In this document: piece by piece, positions 23,032 through 32,077 of the stretch | Numbering within the stretch: the first letter of the stretch is position 1 | Layout of the letters: each line of letters begins with the position of its first letter | From: Thermoplasmatales archaeon SW_10_69_26 | GTDB lineage: Archaea > Thermoplasmatota > SW-10-69-26 | Reading direction: 5' to 3' | DNA length: 64,000 nt | NCBI GenBank assembly: GCA_003009755.1 | Contig: PXUB01000025.1 | Coordinates: 14,205-78,204, forward strand | The notes under the pieces: model-generated | Databases searched by the model: none | Told to the model about the DNA's origin: nothing | The model's input: the letters and a program-made list of their open reading frames with translations, nothing else | Program-made: the position numbers and the translations under genes

Positions 23032-24231
23032 TCAGGCGCTTTCGCCGCCCATGCGGGCGTCCGCGTGGGCGAGCGCGACGTCCGCGGCCTGATACAGCAG
23101 GTGCAGATCGGGCTCGGGTCGGGCGCGGGCGTAGTCGGCGAACTCGCCGCGCAGCGCCAACAGGTCCGCGTGGCCCTCCTCGACCGTGTCGGGATCGGCC
23201 CCAGGGCCCAGGTGGCGAGCGATCGTGGCCCGCAGGCGTTCGATCTTGACGGCGGCGAAGCCAGGCGGCATCGGGTTGTCGACGAGCGGCACGAGCTCGG
23301 GCTCGCCGCCCTCGCCGGGGGGGCCCTGGAAGCCGCCGGCTTCGAGGCCGCGGATCGCGTTCTCGAGGTGGGCGAGCTCGGGCGCCTCGTGGAGGGGCGT
23401 GGCCAGCGGTTCGCCGCAGGCGGCCACACCTTCGACGTCGAAGAGGCCGCGGCCGTCGCCGCGGAGGCCGTCGAGGAACCGGCGGGGCAGCGCCTCGCCC
23501 TCCTCGGTCTCCGCTTCGCGCCAGGCCAGCCGGGAGAGGTCGCCGACGGGCAGCTCGGCACGCAGAGCCAACGCCAGACCGGAGGGCGGCGGCGGATCGG
23601 GATCGTCGCCGGTGGGCCACAGGTAGCCGGCACCGCCACCGGCGAGCACGGTCGTCTCGGCGCGGTGCGTGGTGCACTCCTCGCCGTCGACGAGCACGGC
23701 CCCGGAGACGCCCTCCTCGGCGTCGCCGATCAAGCGCACGGCGACGGTCGTCTGGTCCACGGCGGCGCCCTCGCGCTGCAAGCGATCGAGGATCGCCTCG
23801 CGCAGGTTGCGGGCCCAGGCTTCGTCGTTGGGGACGTCCAGCTCCTCGAGCCACCGTCGGACGCGACGGGCGCGGAAGCCGAACACCTGGGCCTCCTCGG
23901 GGGCGGGAACCTCGCTGCGCTTGATGAGCTCGCGGGCCTGGGGCACCGGGTCCTCGGGGATCGGCGGGACGTCGGGGACGTCCTGGGCGCCCTGGACGAG
24001 CAGGCGGGTGCGGGCGCCCGATCGCACGGCGGCGAGGGCGGCGGCTGCGCCGGCCAGGTCGCCACCGACGACGAGCACGGACCGGTCGCGGGGACGGTCG
24101 GCGTCGGTCTCCTCGTCCGAGCCGAGGGTCATGCCGCCCAGCATGCCGCCGGGGCCTTCGCGGTCGCCGACGATGGCGCCGACGGCGTCCCCAGACGAGG
24201 ACGGCGACGGGTGTTGATCGGGGTCCGCCAT
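23032..24231 (-). CDS. Divergent FAD-dependent L-aspartate-oxidase-like protein
   Basis: A 399-residue protein. The dinucleotide-binding start SVLVVGGDLAGAAAALAAVR (near residue 50) and the second glycine-rich segment TVLAGGGAGYLWPTGDDPDP are those of the fumarate reductase/NadB flavoprotein group. A helical C-terminal region (IERLRATIARHLGPGADP) follows. It starts five bases after the nadA stop, so it is in the nadA operon, where NadB would supply iminoaspartate. However, NadB is normally about 500-540 residues and the usual substrate-site motif (SRGAH..DYP) is not seen, so function is inferred mainly from context. An N-terminal tail of about 48 residues is low-complexity. Confidence 0.62.
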   Translation of the reverse strand: MADPDQHPSPSSSGDAVGAIVGDREGPGGMLGGMTLGSDEETDADRPRDRSVLVVGGDLAGAAAALAAVRSGARTRLLVQGAQDVPDVPPIPEDPVPQARELIKRSEVPAPEEAQVFGFRARRVRRWLEELDVPNDEAWARNLREAILDRLQREGAAVDQTTVAVRLIGDAEEGVSGAVLVDGEECTTHRAETTVLAGGGAGYLWPTGDDPDPPPPSGLALALRAELPVGDLSRLAWREAETEEGEALPRRFLDGLRGDGRGLFDVEGVAACGEPLATPLHEAPELAHLENAIRGLEAGGFQGPPGEGGEPELVPLVDNPMPPGFAAVKIERLRATIARHLGPGADPDTVEEGHADLLALRGEFADYARARPEPDLHLLYQAADVALAHADARMGGESA

Positions 24232-24235
24232 GCGA

Positions 24236-25363
24236 TCACGACCCGATCTCGAGCATGCGGTCCAGCGCGACGCGGGACCACTCGCGGTCCTCCTCGTCGA
24301 CGCGGACGCGGTTGATCACGTTGCCCTTGACCAGCTCCTCGAGCACCCAGGTCACGTAGTTGGGGTCGATCTGGCGCATCGCGTTGCAATCCAGGCAGGC
24401 GTCGCCGCACAGCTGGATGACCTGCTTGGCCTCGGGCGTGTTGCGCTGCAGGTGCTCGATGAGGTGCTTCTCGGTGCCGATCGCGATCGTGGTGTCATCC
24501 TCGGCCTCGTGCACGAAGTCGATGATCTGGCCCGTCGAACCGGCGAAGTCGGCGGCGTCGACGACCTCGCGCGGGCACTCGGGGTGGACGATGATCTCGC
24601 CGTCCGGGTAGCGCTCGCGCATGCCGGCCACGTGCTCGAGGGAGAACCGGTCGTGGACCTGGCACATGCCATCCCACAGGATGAAGCGGGCGTCCTCGAC
24701 GGCCTCCCGAGAGGTGCCGCCGAACTCGGGGTGCCAGGGGTTCCACTTCACCCAGTCCTCGTCGCGGAAGCCCAGGTCGTAGGCGGTGTTGTGGCCGAGG
24801 TGCTTGTCCGGCATGAACAGGATCTTGCGCCCGGAGTCCAGCGCCCACTCGAAGATCTCGTCGGCGCTCGAGCTCGTGCAGATCGCCCCGTCCATCCGGC
24901 CGGTGAAGGCCTTGAGGTCGGCGTAGCTGTTCATGTAGGTGACGGGCACGATCTCGTCGGGGTCGAGCACCTGGGTGAGGTCGTCCCAGGCTTGGCGAAC
25001 CTGCACCATCTCGGCCATGCCGGCCATCGGGCAGGCGGCCTCGCGGCTCGGGATGATGACGTTGCGTTCGCCGCCGGTAAGGATGTCGGCCGTCTCGGCC
25101 ATGAACGTGACGCCGCAGAAGACGATGTTCTCGACCTCGGCGTCACGGGCGCGCTTGGAGAGGGAGAAGGAATCACCCGTGAAGTCCGCCAGCTCGTAGA
25201 TCTCCTCGTGCTGGTAGTTGTGCCCCAAGATGAGGGTCGAGTCGCCCAGGCAATCGCGGGCGCGCTCGATGCGCTCGGCTCGTTCCCCCGGGCCCAGATC
25301 CCGGTAGGGTTCCGGTAGCTGGGCGAAGTGGGCGTACCGGAACAGGTTCAGCGTCTCGGCCAT
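24236..25363 (-). CDS. nadA: Quinolinate synthase
   Basis: A 375-residue, long-form NadA. It condenses iminoaspartate with dihydroxyacetone phosphate to quinolinate in NAD biosynthesis using a [4Fe-4S] cluster. Conserved elements: LGHNYQHEEIYELADFTGDS near residue 46, FCGVTFMAETADIL, YMNSYADLKA, CTSSSA, and WDGMCQVHDRF. The spacing of C111, C234 and C320 matches the three cluster ligands of the Bacillus-type enzyme, and CGDACLDC adds C324 and C327. It leads an operon with the NadB-like gene; nadC is not seen here. Confidence 0.95.
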   Translation of the reverse strand: MAETLNLFRYAHFAQLPEPYRDLGPGERAERIERARDCLGDSTLILGHNYQHEEIYELADFTGDSFSLSKRARDAEVENIVFCGVTFMAETADILTGGERNVIIPSREAACPMAGMAEMVQVRQAWDDLTQVLDPDEIVPVTYMNSYADLKAFTGRMDGAICTSSSADEIFEWALDSGRKILFMPDKHLGHNTAYDLGFRDEDWVKWNPWHPEFGGTSREAVEDARFILWDGMCQVHDRFSLEHVAGMRERYPDGEIIVHPECPREVVDAADFAGSTGQIIDFVHEAEDDTTIAIGTEKHLIEHLQRNTPEAKQVIQLCGDACLDCNAMRQIDPNYVTWVLEELVKGNVINRVRVDEEDREWSRVALDRMLEIGS

Positions 25364-25509
25364 CGCATGGAGCCAGCCGACCGGAGCCTAAAGGCGTTGG
25401 GTTGGGGGAAATCCGTTCGCCCTCGGGAGCGCTGGCTCGAAGAATTTTCGCTCGCGCCCGCGACCACGAAGCTGCCTGCGGTGGCAAGCTTCCCCACCCC
25501 GAGCGAACA

Positions 25510-25550: not shown

Positions 25551-26153
25551 ATGACTGACTACACGCTGGACGAGCTTCCCTACGACTACGACGCGCTGGA
25601 GCCCCACATCAGCGAGCAGGTGCTCAAGTGGCACCACGACCGACACCACCAGGGCTACGTTGACGGGTGGAACAGCGCCGAGGAGACGCTCGAGGAGAAC
25701 CGCGAGTCCGGCGACTTCTCTTCGAGCGGGTCCGCCCTCCGCAACGTGACCCACAACGGGTGCGGTCACATCCTGCACGCGCTGTTCTGGCACAACATGA
25801 GCCCCACCGGCGGCGACGAGCCCACCGGCGCGATCGCCGACCGCATCGAGGCGGACTTCGGCAGCTACGAGGCCTGGGAAGGTGAGTTCCGCGCCGCAGC
25901 CAGCGAGGCCTCCGGCTGGGCGCTCCTCGTCTACGACAGCTTCTCCAACCAGCTCCGCAACGTGGTCGTCGACAAGCACGACCAAGGCGCGCTCTGGGGC
26001 TCGCACCCGATCCTCGCCTTGGACGTGTGGGAGCACTCCTACTACCACGACTACGGCCCCGACCGCGGCGACTTCGTCGACGCGTTCTTCAACGTCGTCG
26101 ACTGGGAGGAGCCCCGCTCGCGGTACAAGCAGGCCGTCTCCCTGTTCGAGTAA
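25551..26153 (+). CDS. sod: Fe/Mn superoxide dismutase
   Basis: A 200-residue enzyme that converts superoxide to peroxide and oxygen in the cytoplasm. The four metal ligands are identifiable: H28 in KWHHDRHH, H76 in GHILHALFW, D158 and H162 in ALDVWEHSYYHDY. Length and motifs match haloarchaeal Mn/Fe SODs; the metal cannot be fixed by sequence alone. It has its own promoter and stands between the divergent nadA operon and the convergent NAD-kinase-like gene. Confidence 0.95.
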   Translation: MTDYTLDELPYDYDALEPHISEQVLKWHHDRHHQGYVDGWNSAEETLEENRESGDFSSSGSALRNVTHNGCGHILHALFWHNMSPTGGDEPTGAIADRIEADFGSYEAWEGEFRAAASEASGWALLVYDSFSNQLRNVVVDKHDQGALWGSHPILALDVWEHSYYHDYGPDRGDFVDAFFNVVDWEEPRSRYKQAVSLFE

Positions 26154-26240: not shown

Positions 26241-27263
26241 TTAGCCGCGCTCGCCGGCGTTGAGCCCGGCGCGCTCGGCGACGTCGTACACCTCGGTGCG
26301 GGCATCGCGCAGCGAGGCGCGCTTGACGACGTAGCCCAGCTCGGTCAGCTTGCCGAGGCTCGATCGCACGGTGCGGGACGTGAGCCCGGACTGGCGAGCG
26401 ATCTCGGAGGGCGTCATCGGGCCCTCGTACTCCAACAGCTTGTAGATGAACCGGGCCGAGGGCGGGGCATCGGCCAGCTCGCTGCCGATCTCGCGTTTCA
26501 GCCGGACGCGGCCGAGCAGGTGGCCGTGCTCGCGCTCGGACAACCGCACCAGCGTCAGCCGGCGGCCGGTGCCCTTGATCGTGACGTCCTCGTCGATCGA
26601 GACCCGGCGGTGACCGTCGACGACGAGCTCGACGCCGGAGCCGCTCTCGGGGTTGGCCAGCGTGATCATGGAGGCGCTGGGCGACACGATCGGGGGATGG
26701 TCCTCCTCGCTGCAGACGGGCACGACGGTCAACACGTCGGCGGCGGACAGGACCGCGGGTCCGCCGGCAGACAACGCGTAGGCGGTCGACCCGGTCGGGG
26801 TGCACACGATCGTGCCGTCGCCGCGGTCGTGCCACAGCAGCTCGCCGTCGACCTTGACGTCGACGTCGAGGAACGTGCCGTTCTGCTGGGGCAACACGGC
26901 GGCCTCGTTGAGCGCCAGCCAGCGCTCGTCGCCGACCTCGCACTCCATGCGCAGCGTCTGCGTGCGCCCCGATCGACCCTCGGCCAGGGCTCGGGCGACC
27001 TCCTCGGCCTCGCCGGCCTGGGCCTCGGCGAGCACGCCCAGGCCCTCGTTGGACAAGAGCAGGACCGGCGGCGGGTCGGGCAGCTCGGCCAACCGCGACA
27101 GGAAGAATCGGGTCTCGCCGACGAGCGTCAGCACGTCGGTCTCGGCGTCGACGGCATCGGTGACGGTCAGCTCGTGCTCGGCGAACGCCTCCCGCACCTG
27201 GCCGCCGTCCTCGCGGGCTCGCTCGTGGGCCTCGACCGCGACGCGCACGTTCCCCGGGCACAT
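26241..27263 (-). CDS. NAD-kinase-like domain fused to a winged-helix domain
   Basis: A 340-residue protein. The middle region has the NAD-kinase core: ALNEAAVLPQ with the NE motif, DGTIVCTPTGSTAYALSAGG, and VDGHRRVSIDEDV. At the N-terminal position of the invariant GGDGT motif there is only LVGETRFF, so the catalytic Asp and ATP-phosphate loop are missing. The last 75 residues form a winged-helix DNA-binding domain (GPMTPSEIARQSGLTSRTVR then LGKLTELGYVVKRASLRDAR). This suggests an NAD(P)- or nucleotide-sensing transcription factor derived from NAD kinase rather than an enzyme, although weak activity is not excluded. ATG 27263 is preferred over an upstream extension because homology starts there. 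Confidence 0.8.
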   Translation of the reverse strand: MCPGNVRVAVEAHERAREDGGQVREAFAEHELTVTDAVDAETDVLTLVGETRFFLSRLAELPDPPPVLLLSNEGLGVLAEAQAGEAEEVARALAEGRSGRTQTLRMECEVGDERWLALNEAAVLPQQNGTFLDVDVKVDGELLWHDRGDGTIVCTPTGSTAYALSAGGPAVLSAADVLTVVPVCSEEDHPPIVSPSASMITLANPESGSGVELVVDGHRRVSIDEDVTIKGTGRRLTLVRLSEREHGHLLGRVRLKREIGSELADAPPSARFIYKLLEYEGPMTPSEIARQSGLTSRTVRSSLGKLTELGYVVKRASLRDARTEVYDVAERAGLNAGERG

Positions 27264-28444: not shown

Positions 28445-30397
28445 GTGATGCCCGTCAGCTTCGAGGCCCGCGCACGAGAGGGCCTGTCCCGTCGGGGGAC
28501 GATGGAGACCCCGCACGGGCCCGTGGACACGCCGGCGATGATGCCGGTGATCAACCCCAACCGCACGCTGATCGAGCCCCAGCGGATGGCCGAGGACTTC
28601 GGCGCTCAGATCCTCATCACGAACGCCTACATCATCCGCAAGGACGAGGACCTGCGCGAGCAAGCCCGCGAGGAGGGCGTGCACGCCCTGATCGATTGGG
28701 ACCGGCCCCTGGTGACGGATTCGGGCACCTTCCAGGACTACGTTTACGGCGAGATCGACCTCGAGCCCGACGAGATCCTCGCCTTCCAGCGCGAGATGGG
28801 CTCGGACGTCGGCACGATCCTCGACGTCTTCAGCCCGCCGGACCGCACGCACGAGGAGGCCGACCAGGAGGCCGACGACACGCTGTTGCGCGCCGTGGAC
28901 GCGGTCGACCACGCCGGCGACATGGCGCTCAACCTGCCCGTGCAGGGCGGCACCTACCCCGACCTGCGCGAGGCGGCCGCCCGCGACGTCTCCCGCCTCG
29001 AACCGCCCGGTGGTGCCCTGCACCCGATCGGTGGCGTCGTCCCCCTCATGGAGGACCAGCGCTACGTCACGCTCACGAAGGCGATCTTGGGCGCCCAGCG
29101 CGGCCTGCACGCCGGCCGCCCGGTGCACCTGTTCGGCGCCGGCCACCCGCACATGCTGGCCCTGGCGGTCTACCTCGGGTGCGATCTGTTCGACTCGGCC
29201 GCCTACGCCAAGTACGCCGACGACGACCGGCTCGTGTTCCCCTGGGGCACCGTCGGGCTCGACGAGCTCGACGAGCTGCCCTGCACGTGCCCCACCTGCC
29301 GCGAGCGCACCGCCGGGGACCTCGAGGCCTTGCCCGACGACGAGCGCGTGCAGGCGCTGGGCGAGCACAACCTGCACGTCACGATGGCCGAGATGCGCCG
29401 CATCCGGCACGCCCAGGACAGCGGCCGCCTGCTCGAGCTGGTGCTCGAGCGCATCAGCGCGCATCCGGCCTTGGACGCCTGCCGGCACGTGCTGGCCGAC
29501 CACGTCGACCAGCTGGAGGCTCGCGAGCCGGTCTCCCACCACCGCGCGGTGACCCTCGTCGACCACGGCCTCGACTGGCATCCCCAGCCCGAGCGGGCGA
29601 TGGACCGGGTCGACCGCCGGCTGGACCCCCGCGGCCCCCTCACGCTGCTGGATGCGGTCGACCGTCCGTTCACGGCGAACGCCACCGACGAGGTGCAGGC
29701 GATGCGCGCCCGCGGCGTGCACCCGTTCTTCCCGTCCCGGCTGGGCCCGGTGCCCTTCGACCTCGACGAAGCCTACCCGTTCTCCCAGTGCCGGGAGGGA
29801 CCGATCACGGAGCCGGTCGTCGAGGCCAGCCGCGAGCAGCTCGACCAACTGGCCGAGGCGTGGGACGTCGACGTCCTCGCACCTGAGACGGCCCGCCAGC
29901 GGCCGGCGGAGGACGAGGTGGATCTGACGGCCGAGCGCGTGGCCGCGACCGCCAGCTACCAGTTCGGGCCCCAGGCCGGCCGACGCCTGCTGGCGGGCGA
30001 GGTCGCGATCGAGACCTCCCCGCGCACGGGGCGTGTGCGGACCGTGGAGACCGACGGCGAGCACGTGCTCTCGCGCCGCGCCTACGACGGCCTGTTCACG
30101 CTCAAGCTCGCCGGCGCTCGCCGCATCCACGAGTGGTTGCCGCGCCCGTTCATGCGCGTCCGCGTCGACGAGGAGTCGGCCCCGTTCAACGCGGCCGGCA
30201 AATCGGTGTTCGCCAAGTTCGTGCTCGGCGTTCAAAAGGGCCTGCGCCCCGGCGAGGAGTGCCTGGTGGTGGACCCCGACGACGAGCTCGTGGGCTGCGG
30301 GCAGCTGCGGGTCAGCCCGGCCGAGATGAAGGACATGGGCAGCGGGCCGGCCGTCGACGTGCGGGAGGGCATCGGCAAGGACACCTACCGGGGCTGA
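28445..30397 (+). CDS. tgtA: Archaeosine tRNA-guanine transglycosylase
   Basis: A 650-residue enzyme that swaps guanine-15 of archaeal tRNA for preQ0, the first committed step to archaeosine. The TGT barrel holds LVTDSGTFQDY (active-site Asp), ILDVFSPPDRTHEE (second Asp) and NLPVQGGTYPDL. Zinc ligands are CTCPTC near residue 280 plus a downstream His. The C-terminal part contains ArcTGT domains and ends in a PUA RNA-binding domain (RVRVDEESAPFNAAGKSVFA to VDVREGIGKDTYRG). It is of full length. The frame starts at GTG 28445 with ATG 28448 directly after; either is possible, with GAGGAG about 18 nt upstream. Confidence 0.95.
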   Translation: MMPVSFEARAREGLSRRGTMETPHGPVDTPAMMPVINPNRTLIEPQRMAEDFGAQILITNAYIIRKDEDLREQAREEGVHALIDWDRPLVTDSGTFQDYVYGEIDLEPDEILAFQREMGSDVGTILDVFSPPDRTHEEADQEADDTLLRAVDAVDHAGDMALNLPVQGGTYPDLREAAARDVSRLEPPGGALHPIGGVVPLMEDQRYVTLTKAILGAQRGLHAGRPVHLFGAGHPHMLALAVYLGCDLFDSAAYAKYADDDRLVFPWGTVGLDELDELPCTCPTCRERTAGDLEALPDDERVQALGEHNLHVTMAEMRRIRHAQDSGRLLELVLERISAHPALDACRHVLADHVDQLEAREPVSHHRAVTLVDHGLDWHPQPERAMDRVDRRLDPRGPLTLLDAVDRPFTANATDEVQAMRARGVHPFFPSRLGPVPFDLDEAYPFSQCREGPITEPVVEASREQLDQLAEAWDVDVLAPETARQRPAEDEVDLTAERVAATASYQFGPQAGRRLLAGEVAIETSPRTGRVRTVETDGEHVLSRRAYDGLFTLKLAGARRIHEWLPRPFMRVRVDEESAPFNAAGKSVFAKFVLGVQKGLRPGEECLVVDPDDELVGCGQLRVSPAEMKDMGSGPAVDVREGIGKDTYRG

Positions 30398-31031: not shown

Positions 31032-31745
31032 TCACTCCCGGAACAGCAGTTGCGTGTGCCCGACGCCGATCACGTCCCCGTGCGACAGCCCTCGGCGCTC
31101 GCCCAGGCCCAGCCGGTCGCCGTTCAGGGAGACCCGAGCCCGCGCCGAGCGGAGATCCAGCAGCGTGTAGGTGTCGTCCTGGATCTCGATCTCGGCCGCC
31201 TGGTCGTCGACGAACCGGCTCTCGGGGAGGGGGACGTCGGCCTTGGGCTGGCTGCCGAGGATCCAGCCGCGGCGGCGGTCGGCCTCGAGCGTGCCCAGGC
31301 GGAACCGGCGGCCGACCTCGAGGCCGTGGACGACGACGAGGTGGGGTCCGGGCCCGGTCGGTTCCGGCTCCCACTCGATCGGCGAGGGATCGGGATCCTC
31401 GGGGTGGACGGACGGGTTGCCGTGGGCGGACAGCTCGCGCAAGGCCTCGGCCAGCGCCCACAGGGGTGCCTGGTCGATCCGGTAGGCGTTCTTCACGCGG
31501 CCGCCCTCGCGGACGCGCTGGGCGCGCACGATGCCGGCCTCCTGCAGCTGGTTGAGGTGGTAGCGCACCCCCTGACGGGTGAGACAGCGGGTGCGGTTCC
31601 CGTTGCGGCCGTCGTGGTCGACCGGCGTGAGCTCGATCTCGTCCAGCGTGCAGGCGTCCTGGAGCTGGGACAGAAGGCTCAGACGGTTCGCGAACGCGAG
31701 CGCTTCGAGGCTCTCCAGGATCCAGTCGGTGGCTTCCTCCCCCAT
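31032..31745 (-). CDS. HTH domain fused to FHA domain
   Basis: A 237-residue protein. The N-terminal half is an ArsR-like winged helix (LESLEALAFANRLSLLSQLQ, RQGVRYHLNQLQEAGIVR). The C-terminal half is an FHA domain (RRRGWILGSQPKADVPLPES, NGDRLGLGERRGLSHGD), which binds phosphothreonine peptides. The combination suggests a DNA-binding regulator responding to Ser/Thr phosphorylation; similar proteins occur in haloarchaea. ATG 31745 has a TATA-like GCGTTCAAAC at 31771-31780, so the message is probably leaderless. Its stop is adjacent to the hemerythrin gene on the other strand. Confidence 0.82.
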   Translation of the reverse strand: MGEEATDWILESLEALAFANRLSLLSQLQDACTLDEIELTPVDHDGRNGNRTRCLTRQGVRYHLNQLQEAGIVRAQRVREGGRVKNAYRIDQAPLWALAEALRELSAHGNPSVHPEDPDPSPIEWEPEPTGPGPHLVVVHGLEVGRRFRLGTLEADRRRGWILGSQPKADVPLPESRFVDDQAAEIEIQDDTYTLLDLRSARARVSLNGDRLGLGERRGLSHGDVIGVGHTQLLFRE

Positions 31746-32077
31746 GGCGCAGGACGAGGCCCGTGACGAGGTTTGAACGCTCGCGCGAAGATCTTCGATC
31801 ACCGATGGATGTCCTACCGCAGGAGGAACCGGGGGCTGCAGCCGGTCCCCAGCTCCGTCGGGATCAGAGGCCTGGTAGTGCAACGGTTGGCTTGACACGT
31901 GGACGTTTGCCGGTGACAAACGAGGGCCAGCGAACCCAACCGCCCCACCGGGCGCGGGCAAGGTCGGCTGAGTGGTGTCGGCTGGGCGCCGTGCAGGGGA
32001 ACGAGCACCTGCTCGAAGGAAGCAACGATTTGGACTGAAACGCCCATTCTTGGCCGCTTGCGCGGCTCTTTCCCCAA
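31746..32077. other. Divergent intergenic region, 332 bases
   Basis: Between the HTH-FHA gene and the Bat-type regulator. The minus-strand TATA-like box at 31771-31780 belongs to the HTH-FHA gene. For the plus-strand regulator I see only weak candidates (such as ATTCTTGG near 32045). No RNA gene or repeat is apparent. Confidence 0.4.

Follow-up and report, generated by a model that had tools for sequence, protein, structure and literature searches.

The window, that is, the whole stretch of 64,000 nucleotides analysed here, encodes a protein in which a NAD kinase fold is followed by a C-terminal winged helix. Comparison with its relatives indicates that this protein is most probably a NAD kinase-derived transcription factor that would sense NAD(P) and control NAD biosynthesis. 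The initial annotation had proposed that an enzyme domain was turned into an NAD(P)/nucleotide sensor controlling transcription, and the comparative evidence supports this predicted function. Fusion and loop decay occur together across lineages, plain NAD kinases coexist with the fused protein, and pocket residues are kept. Moreover, NAD genes adjoin the fused gene in several unrelated contexts, and the promoters they share contain a conserved palindrome. The family is widespread in archaea and apparently undescribed: no fusion of a NAD kinase with a DNA-binding domain was found described in the open-access literature, to which the search was restricted.

The reading frame of the fused gene is unbroken and starts with ATG. 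Its GC3 (0.956) is like that of the flanking genes. Pfam matched the protein to NAD_kinase_C (PF20143, E 6e-22) and its C-terminal part to HTH_24 (E 5e-7) and MarR_2 (E 1e-6), and the N-terminal NAD_kinase model, which contains the GGDGT loop, gave no match. AlphaFold2, run with the window protein and three relatives as input, returned a whole-protein model of mean pLDDT 74, in which residues 3-261 aligned with solved NAD kinase structures with Z scores of 24-27. The PF20143 match and a Z score of 26 thus identify the NAD kinase fold (PF01513/PF20143). The last 83 residues, modelled alone, reached a pLDDT of 87 and aligned with winged helices of the MarR type, among them that of the archaeal ST1710-DNA complex, with Z scores of 10-12; H1-H2-H3 and the beta wing are present according to both Pfam and the model. 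The fused domain organisation first read from the letters is therefore confirmed at both ends of the protein. None of the fused copies tested reached the cut-off of the curated NCBIfam NAD kinase models, but this is weak evidence because the plain copy tested also remained below it. The coordinates of the features are collected in the table.

Features of the fused gene and its surroundings in the window, and corresponding loci in three other genomes (last line).
Feature	Position	Strand	Basis or remark
NAD-kinase-fold and winged-helix protein, 340 aa	26241..27263	-	ORF, Pfam, AlphaFold2 model
C-terminal MarR-like winged helix, about residues 265-328	26280..26471	-	Pfam and model
VGETR, residues 49-53, in place of the GGDGT phosphate/catalytic loop of NAD kinases	27105..27119	-	Alignments
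NE motif, residues 120-121, NAD-contact motif kept	26901..26906	-	N kept in all altered fused (71/71) and all plain (42/42) copies
DRGDG...TPTGSTAYALSAGG, residues 147-169, NAD-contact motifs kept	26757..26825	-	Alignment
nadA, quinolinate synthase, predicted target gene	24236..25363	-	PF02445, E 4.5e-94
FAD-dependent oxidoreductase-like gene directly downstream of nadA	23032..24231	-	Weak FAD Pfam matches
Fe/Mn superoxide dismutase, sharing its intergenic region with nadA	25551..26153	+	Pfam; adjacency absent in G003
Candidate imperfect operator GGCAAGCTTCCCC (nadA strand GGGGAAGCTTGCC)	25483..25495	.	120-132 bp upstream of nadA ATG, nadA/sod intergenic region
Fused gene / nadC-nadX-nadE-nadM loci	L142:4541-8764; L143:832-5368; L144:21-4210		Perfect GGCAATATTTGCC between

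A functional NAD kinase is expected to carry GGDGT (or GGDG followed by S, N or M) at the position where the window protein reads VGETR, a loop without the catalytic Asp. A sequencing slip is unlikely, because the orthologues in two genomes of the same class read VGDSA and VGDNA there. The alignment shows all the NAD-contact motifs (NE/D, DG and TPTGST) in the window protein, with DRGDG at residues 147-151 and TPTGSTAYALSAGG at residues 156-169.

A search for other archaeal fusions of this kind recovered 75 fused copies from at least four lineages, including Asgard archaea and ammonia oxidisers. Seven genomes of the window's class were searched, and two others hold full-length orthologues, 42-43% identical to the window protein. 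Among the 389 genomes of the window's phylum the fusion was found only in three members of this class, which scored above 490 bits, whereas plain NAD kinases stayed below 177. Two further distant relatives came from a contig scan, one in a 'Nanohaloarchaea' MAG and the other in an 'Asgard' MAG. Profile searches detected 5 fused copies in 34 genomes of the phylum of the former and about 50 in 227 genomes of the phylum of the latter, and broader sampling brought in eleven ammonia oxidisers with amoA as well as several small genomes. The fusion is far commoner in the phylum of genome G389 than in that of the window. Viral contigs gave 73 pattern matches, none of which was a relative. The architecture proposed for the family, a NAD kinase fold with a C-terminal PPSA(K/R)F/L...RTVR winged helix, is present in the window protein, and its alignment with five distant relatives contains more than 50 invariant columns. 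The same type of winged helix was also observed in small proteins of the class (L039, at G000:C20:33408-33626, L040, L034 and L038; 33-38% identical), which suggests a promiscuous DNA-binding module in this lineage.

Across the family, the GGDGT loop is altered in 71 of the 75 fused copies and intact in four, one of which reads GGDGA. The altered forms are of many kinds: VGETR, VGDSA, VGDNA, GSDR-x, GDTGT, GDDAF, GGDKG, GGAAT and GRDGD. GGDGT or GGDGS is kept in each of the 42 plain paralogues examined, most of which come from genomes that also carry a fused copy. The Fisher p-value for this comparison takes no account of shared ancestry and was not read as a probability. Eight positions (N120, D150, G151, T156, G159, S160, D217 and G218) do not vary among the 71 altered copies, and within the loop the same holds only for G50, the first Gly of the aligned window VGETR. 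The Asp column of the loop still holds Asp in 45 of the 71. The claim that the fold had lost its catalytic motif is therefore correct for the loop as a whole, but does not extend to the Asp in every member, and the many copies that keep it may have residual activity or use another phosphoryl donor.

The window genome (2.8 Mb, 95% complete) was also searched for a second, intact NAD kinase. It encodes three NAD_kinase_C proteins, including the window protein. One, encoded on contig C3, is a plain NAD kinase that reads VGGDGTIL, so that NADP supply need not depend on the window protein. The gene adjoining this plain copy was named by eye as inositol-monophosphatase-like. The third protein (L003:676-1794, on G000:C30) is more distant, has an intact VGGDGT and also matches the NAD_kinase and DAGK_cat models. 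An intact plain NAD kinase is likewise found in the ammonia oxidisers that carry the fusion (amoA present) and in most Asgard carriers. Three of the intact fused copies, L151, L155 and L162 (GGDGT/A), are the sole NAD_kinase_C protein of the small genomes G679, G688 and G788, and are candidate bifunctional kinase-regulators. In G389 and G560, two MAGs of unestablished completeness, an altered fused copy is the sole NAD_kinase_C match, which counts against the sensor reading.

Genes of NAD biosynthesis or salvage adjoin the fused gene in several arrangements. In the window and in G003, nadA follows downstream on the same strand after about 0.9 kb, and in G006 it is about 15 kb away. The nadA gene of the window is the only one in its genome; the FAD-dependent oxidoreductase-like gene, which ends 5 bp from it, would fit a diverged L-aspartate oxidase. 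At 43 loci of distinct genomes, comprising both large Asgard clades, G394/G395 and G688, the fused gene has a divergent nadA as its immediate upstream neighbour. In another archaeal phylum, three genomes (G619, G621 and G622) have the fused gene divergent from a nadC-nadX-nadE-nadM operon. The identities were assigned by Pfam in G621 only, those in G619 and G622 being read by eye: quinolinate phosphoribosyltransferase (nadC), aspartate dehydrogenase (nadX), NAD synthase (nadE) and a cytidylyltransferase-like protein in the nadM position. Finally, the neighbour is a nicotinate/quinolinate phosphoribosyltransferase in G389 and G567, which belong to two lineages, and is followed in G567 by a nicotinamidase-like gene, named by eye.

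The initial annotation had also drawn attention to the neighbouring superoxide dismutase. Both this gene and nadA are indeed adjacent in the window, but a special link to superoxide dismutase was dropped: the dismutase gene does not adjoin the fused gene in G003 or in the other neighbourhoods read, and is considered an incidental neighbour. Elsewhere in the window, an archaeosine-type tRNA-guanine transglycosylase gene (28445-30397, plus strand) lies 1.2 kb from the fused gene, and the same gene is apparently near the fused gene in G006 too (L006:2582-3895, antisense reading). The protein encoded at 31032-31961 (minus strand) combines an FHA domain at its C-terminus with an N-terminal part that resembles a winged helix.

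A candidate operator was found in these promoter regions. In Asgard clade A, a perfect 13-bp palindrome, GGCAA-N3-TTGCC, is present in 23 of 23 nadA/fused-gene intergenic regions, and a 10/10 match occurred in none of 329 equal-sized control windows of the same loci. Over 22 distinct loci none of the ten motif positions varies, with flanks of 34% mean identity, and in 21 of the 23 regions a second GGCAA follows at exactly 29 bp towards nadA. The nadA promoter has a TATA-like element that keeps a constant distance from the palindrome in most clade A loci; that of the fused gene is found at varying distances. Clade B carries AGCAA-N3-TTGCC, exact in 10 of the 15 regions listed and with one mismatch in the other five. 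The palindrome of L082/L083 is GGCAAAAATTTCC, and a perfect one is found upstream of the fused gene in L142-L144, the nadC operon loci. In G006, a perfect GGCAAATCTTGCC stands 94 bp before the nadA ATG, though the fused gene is 15 kb away, and G003 has GGAAAATCTTGCC (9/10) at 86 bp. The window site matches at 8/10 positions with a spacer of 3, or at 9/10 with a spacer of 2 (shuffle fractions 0.13 and 0.02); it is weak alone, and the spacer-3 match is not significant by itself. Upstream of nadA, only chance-level matches were seen in the three class members where no fused gene was found and nadA was read (G002, G004 and G005), and in the incomplete genome G001.

Genome-wide, ten Asgard genomes contain 2-11 exact palindrome matches each, and those outside the fused-gene locus are mostly inside ORFs. 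A wider regulon search in the Asgard genomes gave few intergenic matches, none with an obvious NAD link. The scarcity of exact matches and their location in ORFs point to a small dedicated regulon. Ammonia oxidisers, G389, G390, G393, G567/G568 and others gave no convincing palindrome in the upstream region of the fused gene. A 9/10 match in the ammonia oxidiser L209 is not shared by its relatives. The ammonia-oxidiser fused copies of L147-L150, L152, L154, L156, L158-L160 and L163 have GGDKG/GGDRG loops, and no NAD gene adjoined the fused gene in the ammonia-oxidiser neighbourhoods read. Since neither NAD neighbours nor the palindrome were detected, the targets or the site may differ in this group. 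Two side observations concern the same group: these fused genes adjoin CTP synthase and PfkB-like kinase genes, and TGCCAAATTTGGCA occurs upstream of the fused gene in L159.

In the mechanism we propose, the NAD-kinase-fold domain, which has lost the GGDGT loop and kept the NAD-contact motifs, would bind a pyridine nucleotide as a signal, most likely NAD(H) or NADP(H). Motif retention is the basis for predicting NAD binding; the protein would also form an oligomer, bind DNA and have lost kinase activity. In the oligomer, the C-terminal winged helices would act in pairs and contact the palindrome GGCAA-N3-TTGCC, located in the promoter region of nadA or of another gene for NAD synthesis or salvage and, in most relatives, presumably also in that of the fused gene itself. 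NAD synthesis would then track the cellular NAD(P) level. The fixed spacing of the palindrome upstream of the nadA TATA-like element in clade A leans slightly toward nadA activation, whereas known bacterial NAD regulators are mostly repressors.

Part of this evidence could be read in other ways. The protein might be a transcription factor for NAD genes that responds to a different ligand, such as ATP, ADP-ribose, NaAD or quinolinate in place of NAD(P), or that works free of any ligand. The pocket is deduced from motifs, and the bacterial regulator NrtR is a precedent, as it responds to ADP-ribose and not to NAD. However, the invariant positions are the NAD-contact motifs of the NAD kinase fold, and it is the phosphate-donor loop that decays; we therefore consider a different ligand rather unlikely. 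That the protein is still an active or bifunctional NAD kinase, a 'trigger enzyme' whose altered loop phosphorylates NAD while the winged helix adds regulation, appears improbable. Its own loop has no Asp, a complete separate NAD kinase is encoded in the genome, the many kinds of loop change are those expected under relaxed constraint, and GGDGT was reported in 124 of 127 archaeal NAD kinases (PMC8553519). The four fused copies with GGDGT/A, three of them the sole NAD_kinase_C copy of their genome, and the Asp kept in 45 of 71 altered loops speak for such activity.

A tree was built from the kinase domain only, with the loop columns left out. A branch with support 94 set the plain copies apart, the window copy grouped with the two class orthologues (98), and the intact copy L081 was nested among altered copies (95). 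The window copy has one of the longest terminal branches, as might be expected of a functionless, decaying paralogue, a pseudogene in the making to which the winged helix was fused incidentally. Such decay is already contradicted by conservation and is very improbable: the frame is intact, codon use is normal, more than 50 columns are invariant over five distant relatives, and one architecture recurs in at least four lineages with conserved synteny and operator. The topology fits one old fusion followed by repeated loop decay, but the backbone is weak. The sole-copy fusions that keep GGDGT/A fit a bifunctional ancestor. On balance, we hold as an evenly weighted conjecture that one NAD kinase and winged-helix fusion arose before several archaeal phyla diverged, that the phosphate loop of a bifunctional kinase-regulator then decayed repeatedly and independently, giving rise to sensors dedicated to NAD(P), and that NAD biosynthesis in Asgard archaea and several further archaeal lineages is controlled chiefly by this family.

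The NAD(P)-sensing regulator proposed here can be compared with known systems. The whole N-terminal fold resembles NAD kinase (NadK/PpnK, PF01513 and PF20143; A. fulgidus 1suw, P. aeruginosa 7qvs) and shares its NE/D, DG, TPTGSTAY and DGQ-type motifs. Unlike NAD kinase, the window protein has an altered GGDGT loop and an added winged helix, and its family sits with NAD biosynthesis genes and a candidate operator. The C-terminal domain has the fold of MarR proteins (BpsR 6pcp, archaeal ST1710 3gfi), whereas these are stand-alone dimers and the window winged helix is a domain on a NAD kinase fold. NadR and NiaR are bacterial NAD repressors with targets such as nadA and nadB; NadR combines an HTH with NMN adenylyltransferase/ribosylnicotinamide kinase, and NiaR has a 3H domain. 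Both control NAD biosynthesis genes, but neither has a NAD kinase fold. NrtR, a Nudix-related regulator of bacterial NAD genes, also joins a NAD-related enzyme domain to a winged helix (PMC6800001), and control of NAD biosynthesis is what we predict for the window protein. The two differ in sensor fold (Nudix versus NAD kinase), in domain of life (bacteria versus archaea) and in their operators. Membership in NrtR was rejected, as the N-terminal domain of the window protein has the NAD kinase fold and is not Nudix-like.

To our knowledge, no dedicated regulator of archaeal NAD biosynthesis is known. Enzyme-derived, metabolite-sensing regulators are a known kind; the sensor fold proposed here, that of NAD kinase, is one that we have not seen reported in that role. 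A predicted family, its target genes and a 13-bp operator are here brought together in a form open to a gel-shift test. The fusions also provide a natural series from enzyme to sensor, the loop being intact in sole-copy fusions and decayed in genomes that also have a plain kinase, in a family that reaches Asgard archaea and ammonia-oxidising archaea.
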